A stretch of DNA of 64,000 nt. Origin: Magnetococcales bacterium (lineage in GTDB: Bacteria > Pseudomonadota > Magnetococcia > Magnetococcales > UBA8363). This document shows positions 10 to 56,827 of the stretch, in pieces. The notes below the pieces were generated by a model. It was not told the DNA's origin. It saw only the letters and a list, made by a program, of their open reading frames with translations, and made no database searches. The DNA lies in NCBI GenBank assembly GCA_015228815.1, contig JADGCV010000008.1, forward strand, positions 1 to 64,000, written 5' to 3'. A program made the position numbers and the translations under genes. Within the stretch, counting starts at the first letter, position 1. Each line of letters begins with the position of its first letter.

Positions 10-137
10 TTATTGAAAGAAAAACACGCGCCCTTTCACCCGAAGCAAGATTCCCGCAAAAGACGCTCCGAGGCTTCGCCCCGGACCCCACCAGGGGCTT
101 TGCCCCTGGACCCCACCAGGGGGATAATCCCCCTGGA
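10..137. repeat. Truncated palindromic element plus two tandem hairpins
   Basis: Bases 10-57 carry the TATTGAAAG end and the CACGCGCC/CACCCGAAG core of the palindrome family found at five other places in the window, with the G-rich terminator arm deleted between them. Next come two near-perfect hairpins: 91-109 (arms CCAGGGGC/GCCCCTGG) and 116-136 (arms CCAGGGGG/CCCCCTGG), each introduced by GGACCCCA. They sit directly upstream of the next gene's ribosome binding site, so they could attenuate or terminate upstream transcription. That role is inferred. Confidence 0.6.
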
Positions 138-168
138 CCCGTATTATTCTTTTTGGAGCCACACTTTC

Positions 169-7402: not shown

Positions 7403-7430
7403 TCCCAAGGATGACATAAGATTGATTTTC

Positions 7431-7558
7431 CACGCGCCATTTTACCCGAAGCGAATTTCTGCGGTTTTTGCGAAAATTTGCTTCGGGTGAAATGGCGCGT
7501 GAAAAAAAAATCAAAACCCTGGGGGCAATCCCCAAGACCCCTTTTTTCTTTCAATAAT
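7431..7558. repeat. Palindromic element, one arm plus core
   Basis: Core inverted repeat 7431-7458 / 7474-7501: 28-base arms starting CACGCGCCATTT, with only two G-T type mismatches. It is followed by the right-hand arm 7511-7558 (CAAAACCCTGGGGGCAATCC ... CTTTCAATAAT). The outer end touches the stop codon of the minus-strand gene that ends at 7559. The arm contains a CCTGGGGG hairpin and a T6 run, suitable as a terminator for that gene or for ihfA. Confidence 0.8.
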
Positions 7559-22212: not shown

Positions 22213-22292
22213 GGTCGGAAAAACAAATCACCAAAAAAAAGAGGGATCCTGGTGCAATCCCCCGGACCCCTCTTTCTTTTTCAATATCCTCC
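22213..22292. repeat. Diverged terminator-like palindromic element
   Basis: Contains GAGGGATCC ... GGACCCCTC and ends with CTTTCTTTTTCAATAT, a diverged form of the family's CCCCTTTTTTCTTTCAATAAT arm. It lies 23 bases beyond the DUF2802 stop codon and upstream of the FliK-like gene on the minus strand, so it could reduce read-through between them. Confidence 0.5.
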
Positions 22293-35592: not shown

Positions 35593-35920
35593 TCTCCGAT
35601 CCGACCACCTGGCCATCGTCCAGGATATCCTGCGGCATCATGCGCCGGACCGGGAGGTGTGGGCCTTCGGTTCCCGGGTCCGGGGAACGGCACGCGCGGC
35701 CTCGGATCTGGATCTGTGTATCCGGGGAGATGAACCCATTGGGTTTGAACGGCTGGGGCGGTTGCGGGATGCCTTTTCGGTAAGCGTTCTGCCCTTCAAG
35801 GTGGACATGGTGGATTGGGCAACGACATCAGAGGGATTCAGAAGGATTATCGAAATGAACCGGGTGGTGGTGCAATATTCGGAAAGCGGTTTTCGCGCAT
35901 CAATTTTAGAAATATCGTAA
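35582..35920 (+). CDS. mntA: MntA-type nucleotidyltransferase antitoxin
   Basis: 112-residue minimal nucleotidyltransferase with the active-site motif GSRVRGTARAASDLDL (GSx10DxD) and the third carboxylate in KVDMVDW. It pairs with the preceding HEPN protein as a type VII toxin-antitoxin system, expected to adenylylate the toxin. Its last two codons and stop lie inside the left end of the 449-base palindromic element, so the natural C-terminus may have been altered. Confidence 0.85.
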   Translation: MPLDLRSDHLAIVQDILRHHAPDREVWAFGSRVRGTARAASDLDLCIRGDEPIGFERLGRLRDAFSVSVLPFKVDMVDWATTSEGFRRIIEMNRVVVQYSESGFRASILEIS

Positions 35921-36364
35921 CTGCCCAGGTACCCTCTGGGTTCAATTATTGAAAGAAAAAAGGGGTCTGGGGGATTGCCCCCAGGGTTTTGATTTTTCTT
36001 TTGATTTTGATTTTGATTTTCCACGCGCCATTTCACCCGAAGCGAATTTCCGCGTGATTTTTGCGGAAATTCGCGTAGGCGCGCACCTTGGTCCTGGTCT
36101 TTTCGCGGTTTTTGCGAAAAGACCAGGACACATTGCAAGTTTCCATCCTGCAATGCGTTTGCCCTTCTTCGCAAGAAACGCGAAGAAGGACAGGCCAAGG
36201 GGCGCGTCTTACGCGGTTTCTCGCAAAAACCACGCGAGAAACCGCTTCGGGTGAAATGGCGCGTAAAAAACAAAGTCAAAAACAAAATCAAAACCCTGGG
36301 GGCAATCCCCCAGACCCCTTTTTTCTTTCAATAATTGAACCCAGAGGGTACCTGGGCAGTTACG
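35916..36364. repeat. Full-length 449-base palindromic element
   Basis: Terminal arms 35916-35996 and 36284-36364 are perfect inverted repeats of 81 bases. Each begins CGTAACTGCCCAGGTACC, runs through ATTATTGAAAG, and contains a CTGGGGG/CCCCCAG hairpin next to T-rich tracts, so each arm is terminator-like in both directions. The interior has a second inverted repeat (CACGCGCCATTTCACCCGAA near 36022 / its complement ending near 36264) and at least three nested hairpins, including GTCCTGGTCTTTTCGC with its complement near 36113-36128. No gene is inside. It has no target-site duplication that I can see. Confidence 0.9.
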
Positions 36365-36571
36365 GAAAAAAAAGAATCCGGGGGCGTCCCCCCAGGGGGT
36401 CGAACCTGGCGTCACGTTCTTCCGACCAGTCCCGGATCCATTCCGAGGGACTGATGCGGAGGATTCATTCAATACATGGCAAACATGGTCTGTTTTGACA
36501 TGGATGGTTTCGTGTATCATGATTCATGCATCAATCATGGATGCAACTCCATCGGCGGTCCCAAGACAATC

Positions 36572-39347: not shown

Positions 39348-39506
39348 CGCGTGTTGCCAACCTCGCAGGGAAAGGATTGTTCCTTCTCGGGAACGAAAAC
39401 ACGGCATGATCAGGGGATGTTAGGATTTTCGGGAAAGATTTGTCAATCCTTCAAGTGGCGCCCGTTTCCATGATCGTAACTATTCAGATCCCTTTCTCGA
39501 TTCGGG

Positions 39507-39630
39507 ATTATTGAAAGAAAAAAGGGGTCTGGGGGATTGCCCACAGGGTTTTGGTTTTGGTTTTGATTTTGTTTTTCCACGCGCCCTTTCACCCGAAGCA
39601 AGATTCCCGCGTGGTTTTTGCGGGAATCTT
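39507..39630. repeat. Palindromic element, left half
   Basis: Has the ATTATTGAAAG end, a GGGGTCTGGGGGATTGCCC arm with one change (CCCACAGGG for CCCCCAGGG), T/G-rich spacer, the CACGCGCC/CACCCGAAG core and a closing hairpin AAGATTCCCGC/GCGGGAATCTT (39600-39630). The right arm is missing. The rest of 39631-39995 is AT-rich and holds no gene. Confidence 0.75.
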
Positions 39631-39703
39631 ATGGCTGGGCGGGTTTATTGTTTGGACGATGTTGTTTATTGCTGATAGTATATTACGGCGGGCGAATATA
39701 TGT

Positions 39704-39775
39704 AACCGTTCAGATTCCGTTCTTCCCGCGTTCGTTTTGGATGATGTTTGTTGAAGGGGGTATGAACGGTTACGA
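39704..39775. repeat. Short inverted-repeat element with GTAACCGTTCA ends
   Basis: Arms GTAACCGTTCA (39704-39714) and TGAACGGTTAC (39765-39775) match the ends of the larger element at 46901-47126. GAATAT stands just outside both ends (39696 and 39776), offset by two bases on the left, so a target duplication is possible but not clean. A separate hairpin ATGGTCA/TGACCAT follows at 39780-39809. Confidence 0.55.
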
Positions 39776-39995
39776 ATATATGGTCAGTAGTATACAGTAA
39801 TATGACCATATCAAAAAGAAAAATAATTGTCGATAAATGAAATTTTCCAAGGGGGTGGACTGTTTTTTCTTGCGGTCACAATGAAAATGAGTATACATCC
39901 ATCTTCGTGATTTTTCATGGGTGTCATCGAATTGCGGTGGCGCCTGTGGAATGGAAGGTGATGAATCTGGAATCATTTTTTCTGAATGAACATTG

Positions 39996-46611: not shown

Positions 46612-46908
46612 CAGAAGCGCATGGATCGCCCGATCATGCGCGGGGGTGGCCATGCGGTGAATTCGGATCGTAAGCGTTTTGGCGCATGTGTCTGGAACAA
46701 TGTCGGCGGACGAGACAAAAAGTGCCCGAATCAATGCGCGAGCCTCTTCCTCCTTGTTTAGATGTGGGCGCAGGATTGCTACCAATGCTGTTTCAGCCCG
46801 ATAGGCGATCATTTTTACCGTATCGGACAGCATTTTGTTCAGTGGCAAGAACTGTGTTGGACAATCCTCCAGTGGCAACATGTCGAGGGATACCTTTCGC
46901 GTAACCGT
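46543..46908 (-). pseudogene. Transposase C-terminal fragment
   Basis: An open minus-strand frame of about 120 codons ending ARALIRALFVSSADIVPD ... RIHRMATPAHDRAIHALL ... FCHPETGDKLIYELV, which I recognise as the C-terminus of a large transposase family common in environmental proteobacteria. The N-terminal part is missing: the frame hits a stop at 46909-46911 inside the inverted-repeat element at 46901. Family assignment is from memory of the sequence type. Confidence 0.65.
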
Positions 46909-47126
46909 TCAGACCCCCGCTCCCTCCGGGAGAGGGTCGGGGTGAGGGGAACAGAAACTCCATCATTCAAAGGGCTGTGGTGATCCTTGAAGAACCATTC
47001 CAATTGCTTGATTTCGTGACGAGATCTTTCTATGGAATTACCGTTGATCAAAGCGCCGGTTCCCTCACCCCTGCCCCTCTCCCAGAGGGAGAGGGGAAAA
47101 AATCCAGGGGGGGTCTGAACGGTTAC
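46901..47126. repeat. 226-base inverted-repeat element with GTAACCGTTCAGACCCCC ends
   Basis: Left end GTAACCGTTCAGACCCCC (46901-46918) mirrors the right end at 47109-47126. Inside lie CTCCCTCCGGGAGAGGGTCG (46921 on) and, inverted, CCCCTCTCCCAGAGGGAG, the widespread CCCTCACCCC-type repeat, with a unique middle of about 100 bases. No transposase is inside. It cuts off the transposase remnant. Non-autonomous mobile element is the likely reading. Confidence 0.7.
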
Positions 47127-55924: not shown

Positions 55925-56665
55925 ATGTCACGGCGTAACCAACGTGAGCCGGATCGACTCAGGCCGGTCACCATCACCCGTTCTTATGTCGATCATGCCG
56001 AAGGATCCTGTTTGATTACCTGTGGCGGCACGCGCGTTTTGTGTACTGTCTCGATCGAGGAACGGCTTCCTTTCTGGATGCGTGATCAAAATCGTGGTTG
56101 GATCACGGCGGAATATGGCATGTTGCCTCGTTCGACCCATACGCGCAGTCCGCGTGAGGCCACTCGCGGCAAACAATCGGGGCGTACCCTTGAAATTCAG
56201 CGTTTGATCGGACGTTCGCTGCGTTCGGTGGTTCAGCTTGAAAAATTGGGGAAAAGGACGCTTTGGATCGATTGTGATGTGATTCAGGCGGACGGGGGGA
56301 CCCGTACCGCATCGATCACCGGGGCGTTCATCGCTTTGACGGATGCCTGCCGTCGTCTCCACCAGGGGGGAATCATTGCCGAGTTTCCCATTGCCGACCA
56401 TGTGGCTGCGGTCAGTTGTGGCATGGTTCACAACATTCCCATGTTGGATCTGGATTACGAGGAGGACTCTCAATGCCAGACCGACATGAATTTCGTCATG
56501 ACCGGCGATGGTCGTTTTGTCGAAATCCAGGGTACTGCCGAAGGCAATCCGTTCACCCGGGAACAATTCAATGCCTTGCGAACGCTTGCGGAACAGGGGA
56601 TCAACGAGTTGGTCCAATTGCAAAAGAACGCCCTTTCTCTTTCTCCCCAGGTTCATGATTATTGA
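55925..56665 (+). CDS. rph: Ribonuclease PH
   Basis: 246-residue phosphorolytic 3' exonuclease that trims tRNA precursors. Clear family text: [96 protein letters not shown]. The stop codon TGA lies inside the left end of the palindromic element that follows, so the last codons are adjacent to, or part of, the repeat. Confidence 0.96.
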
Positions 56666-56827
56666 AAGAAAAAAGGGGTCTTAAGGGATTGCCCCCAGGG
56701 TTTTGATTCTTCTTTTGAATTTTCTTTTGATTTTGTTTTTCACGCGCCATTTCACCCGAATGGCGCGTAAAAACAAAGTCAAAACCCTGGGGGCAATCCC
56801 TTAAGACCCCTTTTTTCTTTCAATAAT
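56658..56827. repeat. 170-base palindromic element, perfect 49-base arms
   Basis: Arms 56658-56706 and 56779-56827 are perfect inverted repeats of 49 bases (ATTATTGAAAG ... CCCCCAGGGTTTTGA). The core is reduced to CACGCGCCATTT ... AATGGCGCGT. Both arms carry GTCTTAAGGG where the copy at 35916 has GTCTGGGGG. It overlaps the end of rph and faces hemW, fitting a bidirectional terminator. Confidence 0.9.

Follow-up and report, generated by a model that had tools for sequence, protein, structure and literature searches.

Elements of the IS66 family are on record as leaving 8-bp target duplications (PMC3281130). Among intergenic palindromic repeats, the ERIC and RU sequences of enterobacteria (PMC2229807, PMC2759123) have been likened to MITEs, and the family described here shows a general resemblance to them; its copies reach about 450 bp with a branched interior, and ERIC measures 127 bp. 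The REP/REPIN sequences associated with RAYT transposases are dispersed hairpins between genes and a target for IS110-family elements, two properties shared by the present family, which differs in having no linked RAYT, 8-bp duplications, and IS66-type ends. IS110 and IS1111 elements are described as choosing their targets by means of a guide RNA (PMC11187229, PMC11208160).

The 64-kb stretch of DNA analyzed here (the window) is part of contig C8 in a draft genome of 4.2 Mb in 96 contigs, and it contains several copies of a palindromic element. The family is a large set of short, noncoding mobile elements in magnetotactic bacteria; it is real, large, and composite, with IS66-type palindromic copies, and no description of it was found in the literature searched. 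The core arm ATTGAAAGAAAAAAGGGGTCT, with two mismatches or fewer, occurs 179 times in this genome and 13 to 349 times in seven genomes of the same genus (recorded as Magnetococcales), while the reversed pattern gave zero matches in all of them. The family is thus present in 8 of the 8 genomes of the genus, and a diverged form of the core extends to other families of the order, some match being present in 29 of 48 genomes (examples are L021, L022, and L031). Searches of plasmid, phage, and viral collections returned no match to the element.

The coordinates of the window copies are collected in Table 1. The preliminary description, made from the window alone, had singled out two palindromes, and both proved to be exact: 35916-35996 and 36284-36364 are inverted repeats at 81 of 81 bases, and 56658-56706 and 56779-56827 are inverted repeats at 49 of 49. 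The two arm versions, GTCTGGGGG and GTCTTAAGGG, and the partial copies near positions 10, 7431, 22213, and 39507 were also found in the window as described. The predicted RNA folding of the 449-nt stretch at 35916-36364 has a z score of about -33 against its own dinucleotide shuffles; therefore, the palindrome is not a product of chance.

Table 1. Positions of the palindromic elements and their parts in the 64-kb window
Feature	Position	Strand	Remarks
Complete composite palindromic element, 447 bp	35917..36363		GTAAC...GTTAC; GTAACYGYYCAG match at both ends; without target duplication
Left outer arm	35917..35946	+	IS66-type terminal inverted repeat (GTAACTGCCCAGGTACC...)
Right outer arm	36334..36363	-	Same terminal repeat, inverted
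Left core arm	35947..35968	+	TATTGAAAGAAAAAAGGGGTCT; common to the family
Right core arm	36312..36333	-	
Terminator-like hairpin	35966..35985	+	TCTGGGGGATTGCCCCCAGG; T-rich tail; similar site on both strands
Mirror terminator-like hairpin	36295..36314	-	
Trunk 1, left arm	36024..36041	+	CGCGCCATTTCACCCGAA
Trunk 1, right arm	36246..36263	-	
Side hairpin A1	36042..36074		Stem GCGAATTTCCGC; 9-nt loop
Trunk 2, left arm	36077..36090	+	Trunk 2 arms without within-copy covariation
Side hairpin B1	36091..36129		Stem GTCCTGGTCTTTTCGC; perfect 16-bp stem; loop GGTTTTT
Apical hairpin C	36130..36156		
Side hairpin B2	36157..36195		GTTTGCCCTTCTTCGC type; 3 mismatches in this copy
Trunk 2, right arm	36196..36209	-	
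Side hairpin A2	36213..36245		Stem GCGGTTTCTCGC; variant unlike A1
Second palindrome	56658..56827		Core lacking IS66-type outer arms; both sides with the GTCTTAAGGG variant
Left half of a copy	39476..39635	+	Outer arm GTAACTATTCAGATCC plus one A hairpin
72-bp element	39702..39773		GTAACCGTTCAG ends; 8-bp target duplication GAATATAT at 39694-39701 and 39774-39781
226-bp sister element	46901..47126		GTAACCGTTCAGACCCCC ends
Partial copy	7420..7558		Right core arm plus one A-type hairpin
Core copy	22228..22285		Strongly decayed
Partial copy	10..58	+	Core start joined directly to trunk 1 and A

Read from the outside inward, the element consists of an outer arm of about 30 nt that starts with GTAAC, the core arm TATTGAAAGAAAAAAGGGGTCT, a small hairpin (GGGGGATTGCCCCC), CAGGGTTTTGATTTTG repeats, trunk 1 (CGCGCCATTTCACCCGAA), side hairpin A1, trunk 2 (AGGCGCGCGCCTTGG), side hairpin B1, and the apical hairpin C, past which B2, trunk 2, A2, trunk 1, and the outer layers follow in mirror order. 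The smallest copies, of 58 to 59 bp, comprise the core only. This plan is kept in the relatives despite quite different stem sequences, with B stems of 16 bp and a 7-nt loop and A stems of 11 to 14 bp. Many copies of the relatives (L042, L084, L098, L107, and others) have a second type of interior, made of AAACAAAAAGGTTTCCATG and AAATAAAAAGCTTCATTCTTCGC modules, in place of the side hairpins. In relatives such as L062, L093, and L107, the same core is flanked by outer arms GTTGACATTC...GAATGTCAACACGCCCTA that are not of IS66 type and are possibly a second terminal-repeat family. Short G/C-rich palindromes (CCCCTGGACCCC and GGGGGCGTCCCCCCAGGGGG) were observed close to element remnants at window positions 61-145 and 36374-36400. 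A tree-shaped fold can be proposed for all copies only with caution, because the predicted fold of the 447-bp copy joins A1 with A2.

From its sequence, the element is best read as a composite, nonautonomous MITE of IS66 type. The end motif GTAACYGYYCAG was found 49 times in forward and 43 times in reverse orientation in this genome, compared with 2 and 0 times for the reversed-pattern control. Copies with intact ends span from GTAAC to GTTAC, some of them with an 8-bp target duplication. Such 8-bp direct repeats stand on either side of palindromic copies L004 (ACAATATA), L005 (AAAAATAT), L010 (ACGCCTGG), L188 (GCTGAGGC), and L226 (GTCATGTC), and a total of nine elements that belong to the family or carry its ends have them; the other two-ended copies, like the 447-bp one, have none. 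The 226-bp sister element occurs in four near-identical copies (the one in the window and L331, L332, and L333), and three copies of this type have 8-bp duplications (L223/L333, GAAAAAAA; L331, CCTCAATC; L332, CTTCCAAT).

A 1737-bp IS66-type transposon with a 476-codon open reading frame (PF03050; E value, 2.4e-49) was found in a genome of the same genus (L335 in G001). It has GTAACTATTCAGCACCCCCC at both sides, and its flanking octamers, GGAGGAAG and CGAGGAAG, are alike at 7 of 8 positions, as a near-perfect target duplication. Both of its ends share the 19-nt sequence GTAACTATTCAGCACCCCC with six palindromic copies in relatives, all of which start with these 19 nt (L059, L068, L074, L075, L092, and L156), and the ends of the 447-bp copy, GTAACTGCCCAGG, are related to it. 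No transposase gene lies inside the 447-bp hairpin sequence. The window contains no IS66 match, and elsewhere in this draft genome there is one transposase match of 49 residues. A full-length IS66 parent in the element's own genome was rejected, since the draft assembly holds a remnant only; longer IS66 genes are present in genomes of the same genus. A MITE usually has its parent in the same genome, which is not required if the parent has been lost. IS66-type ends are found on both sides in 14 of the 34 complete pairs of this genome, on one side in 11, and on neither in 9, so that the core may also have spread by other means.

The same ends and 8-bp duplications, which fit IS66, bear on whether the family is of a REPIN-like kind, mobilized by a RAYT (Y1) transposase. 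Palindromic hairpins scattered through intergenic regions would be expected of such elements, and the genome does encode one Y1 transposase, but no family motif was seen by eye in the 3.3 kb surrounding this sole Y1 gene. Not being flanked by family repeats, it was rejected as a RAYT partner, and we regard a REPIN origin as extremely unlikely.

Gene neighborhoods were taken from a simple codon-usage gene finder, and the copies prefer gaps in which two genes converge. In this genome, 21 copies lie between convergent genes, 29 between in-line genes, and 3 between divergent genes. Within the 8-kb loci of the relatives, convergent gaps account for 25 of 63 gaps with the element versus 29 of 224 without it (Fisher P, 7e-6), and divergent gaps account for 8 of 63 versus 66 of 224 (P, 0.0085). 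Read on either strand, the core resembles a terminator, with a GC-rich hairpin followed by a T run downstream of genes, as predicted for an intrinsic terminator. Because of this likeness on both strands and the location mostly at the 3' ends of genes, the core probably serves as a transcription terminator in both directions or is tolerated as one. At 35917, the upstream reading frame, whose end is at 35920, seems to take its stop codon from the GTAA of the element.

No clean empty sites were found for the window copies in comparisons with the relatives, as either the flanking order or the identity was too different, and a scan of all copies of this genome against the relatives gave partial cases only. 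L321 and its counterparts L093 and L101 are one locus, at which the relatives have an ordinary terminator 3' of a gene, while here the terminator runs directly into an element's right half. L161 and L047 represent one insertion common to two species.

It had been proposed that arms are the same within a copy and differ between copies. This was compared in 34 complete pairs from this genome and 59 from the relatives by aligning the left arm with the reversed right arm, within and between copies. The proposal holds for the two palindromes first noticed and for the short-loop side hairpins, and it fails for the long arms. As a general rule, symmetry is contradicted by the core arms, which are identical over 31 nt in only 10 of 34 pairs here and 10 of 59 in the relatives; mixed copies, which combine GTCTGGGGG in one arm with GTCTTAAGGG in the opposite arm, are common (L180, L181, L188, L212, L223, and L234). 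Similarity of the 31-nt core arms is 0.925 within copies versus 0.906 between copies in this genome and 0.919 versus 0.896 in the relatives; permutation reached these values in 14 of 2000 and 0 of 2000 trials, respectively, so the effect is real and small. A further comparison of core arms in this genome gave 0.955 versus 0.947, a significant but tiny difference. For the 32-nt outer arms of this genome the values are 0.477 within and 0.414 between. In the full-length copies of this genome, neither the trunk 2 arms, about 115 nt apart (0.806 versus 0.796), nor the trunk 1 arms, about 200 nt apart (0.968 versus 0.965), differ significantly. Left and right long-range arms thus hardly cluster by copy in this genome, and the symmetry of the two palindromes would come mainly from spread of the whole palindrome with different terminal-repeat subfamilies.

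The side hairpins, on the other hand, do behave as proposed. In this genome, the A stems match at 0.968 within a hairpin versus 0.680 between hairpins (0/5000 permutations), the B beta stems at 0.920 versus 0.850 (2/5000), and the B alpha stems at 0.971 versus 0.921 (50/5000). The corresponding values in the relatives are 0.974 versus 0.735 for the A stems and 0.938 versus 0.807 and 0.980 versus 0.715 for the B stems (each 0/5000). In a count restricted to B stems of fixed length, from which seven false tips had been taken out manually, 39 of 55 were perfect and the mean match was 0.955. Perfect symmetry might simply reflect youth, that is, a recent spread with no time for decay, and the A stems of this genome do fall into three nearly invariant classes. 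The trunk 2 arms provide an internal control: they have decayed to about 75 to 80% and differ by about 20 to 25% in the same copies whose stems match at more than 90%, so the copies are not that young and youth alone is no explanation. Stem sequences also vary between genomes yet stay paired, and we find the youth reading very improbable.

Covariation was assessed in 22 aligned full-length copies, whose orientation was set by their B hairpins, with the structure derived from the window copy. Across six helices, 93.7% of the cells are paired, compared with 84.4% in shuffles, and 213 cells are changed on both sides, compared with 76 in shuffles and 10 to 46 in slid versions; the aligned copies are related by descent, and these are not counts of independent events. 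Two-sided changes occur in 8 of 16 pairs of B1 (99.4% paired), 8 of 16 pairs of B2 (96.0% paired), 5 of 12 pairs of A1, and 7 of 12 pairs of A2. Trunk 2 has them in 2 of 14 pairs (84.2% paired) and trunk 1 in 4 of 18 (96.7% paired). The changes in trunk 1 are concerted between genomes, though not within this one, so that the dependence on arm distance is not a strict rule. Further pair types in the alignment numbered 65, which is no excess over shuffles. Side-hairpin matching together with the frequent two-sided changes supports, at short range, the earlier suggestion that the arms are corrected against each other or that structure is under selection; for the long outer arms this suggestion mostly does not stand.

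One kind of selection would act on a structured RNA encoded by the element and keep its stems paired. The strong covariation of the side hairpins, the fixed 16-bp B stems, and the conserved loop GGTTTTT are what such an RNA would have. An RNA made from one strand should, however, favor G-U over A-C mismatches, and the strand-oriented stems have 8 G-U versus 5 A-C, a small count biased by design toward well-paired hairpins, in which there is no G-U excess. Both strands fold alike, no promoter-like site was found in the element, and the element has no Rfam match (a tRNA is the only match in the window). An RNA origin of the pairing is decidedly unlikely.

Alternatively, the hairpins may be kept as protein-bound DNA structures, either cruciforms or single-strand hairpins, with the compensated changes arising from selection alone. 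The constancy of the tips (TTTTCGCGGTTTTTGCGAAAA) relative to the mid-stems and the fixed stem length agree with this, as does the combination of unlike A hairpins: A1 and A2 are of different types in all 12 copies read in this genome (permutation P, ~0.012) and in 14 of 15 copies read in the relatives, L347 being the exception. This difference could result from the instability of long perfect palindromes or from a requirement that the two hairpins stay separate. Against this reading, trunk 2 would be required for the same fold but is only 84% paired, with the few two-sided changes given above, and in the predicted fold of the 447-bp copy A1 pairs with A2, so that the two individual hairpins are not formed. 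We consider selection on DNA structure as the sole cause to be somewhat unlikely. The two-sided stem changes could be due to template switching at short range or to selection for hairpins in the DNA, and the data fit both. The imperfect hairpins L004, L010, L349, and L352 look like chimeras of two variants with mismatches, the product expected from recombination between copies. None of the hairpins read has a loop inverted relative to its trunk; such an inversion is the trace left by some template-switch routes.

The element is itself a site of insertion. An insert starting with AATGGTATGGTCCGCC, which encodes an IS110-family transposase (PF01548; E value, 7.2e-18), adjoins the core arm at one fixed base, immediately after GGGGTCT, at 14 junctions in varied surroundings. 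Junctions of GGGGTCT with AATGGTATGG lie at L214 1-573 (G000:C29) and in L048, L094, L153, L155, L156, L186, L191, L192, L217, L227, L243, L246, and L251, and the element is also present at L368 764 to about 1930. Because most of these loci, other than L368 and L367, were fetched for containing the core arm, the number of junctions is not a rate. An independent search with PF02371 recovered L368 as a full-length element between two core-like halves and L367 as a truncated one fused to a core arm. In this assembly, dozens of contig ends (e.g., C1, C4, C9, C14, C17, C25, C31, C44, and C50) lie inside the palindromic element or its IS110-family lodger, and the element accounts for much of the fragmentation of these assemblies.

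Junctions of this kind raise the question of whether the palindromes were built by successive insertions at the tips of other palindromes, with symmetry only a relic of nesting. The 14 IS110-family junctions at GGGGTCT in the core centre agree with such a history, as do the GTAAC ends that stand directly inside core arms after TATTGAAAGAAAAAAG (L165, L176, L198, L203, L205, and L226). The presumed empty outer palindrome at C46:11256-11311 was rejected as such, being a deletion derivative, and nesting leaves the concerted changes of the side-hairpin stems across species unexplained. It is unlikely to be the source of the symmetry.

We therefore return to an IS66-type element, and it is probable that the family is a noncoding mobile element (MITE) of this type with co-changing side hairpins and a terminator-like core. 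The terminal repeats GTAACYRYYCAG, the 8-bp duplications of several copies, and the same-genus IS66 transposon with identical 19-nt ends suggest that an IS66-type transposase would move the element in trans, as a whole palindrome, so that each copy would be symmetric at the start. Copies with different terminal-repeat subfamilies would then differ from each other, and their long arms would become unequal by later decay and recombination. The larger copies hold a conserved set of side hairpins whose two arms have co-changed as the genus diverged; the most likely cause is that replication slips between close inverted arms and uses one arm as the template for the other, whether or not the hairpins are also under selection. 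A tentative extension, which as a whole we consider less likely than not, is that the arms of fixed DNA hairpins in a genus-wide mobile element are kept identical by short-range template switching, that hairpin correction is thereby recorded naturally in hundreds of dispersed copies across the eight genomes, with the distant arms as a control, and that the palindrome is also a programmed landing site for the IS110-family element.

Compared with IS110 and IS1111 elements (PMC11187229, PMC11208160), the PF01548-containing element resembles them in sitting at a fixed base of the palindrome core. It occupies copies of the family without being part of the family, and the palindrome offers it a repeated target outside the enterobacteria. 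The family shares with IS66-family MITEs (PMC3281130) the GTAA-type terminal repeats, the 8-bp duplications, the lack of a transposase, and the ends of an IS66 element of the same genus, and it differs from them in its near-complete palindromic interior with conserved side hairpins and in the mixing of terminal-repeat subfamilies within one core family. Perfect stems, multibase concerted changes, and short loops are features in common with the template-switch hairpins (PMC8794818) and quasipalindromes (PMC7202029); here the changes were read from sequence comparison and come without loop inversion. Unlike those hairpins, the present ones belong to a dispersed mobile element, of which many copies carry the record. 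Two-sided stem change is an old question, to which the family brings many hairpin copies in one genome and its relatives, and because arms at different distances lie inside the same copy, the distance rule can be tested.
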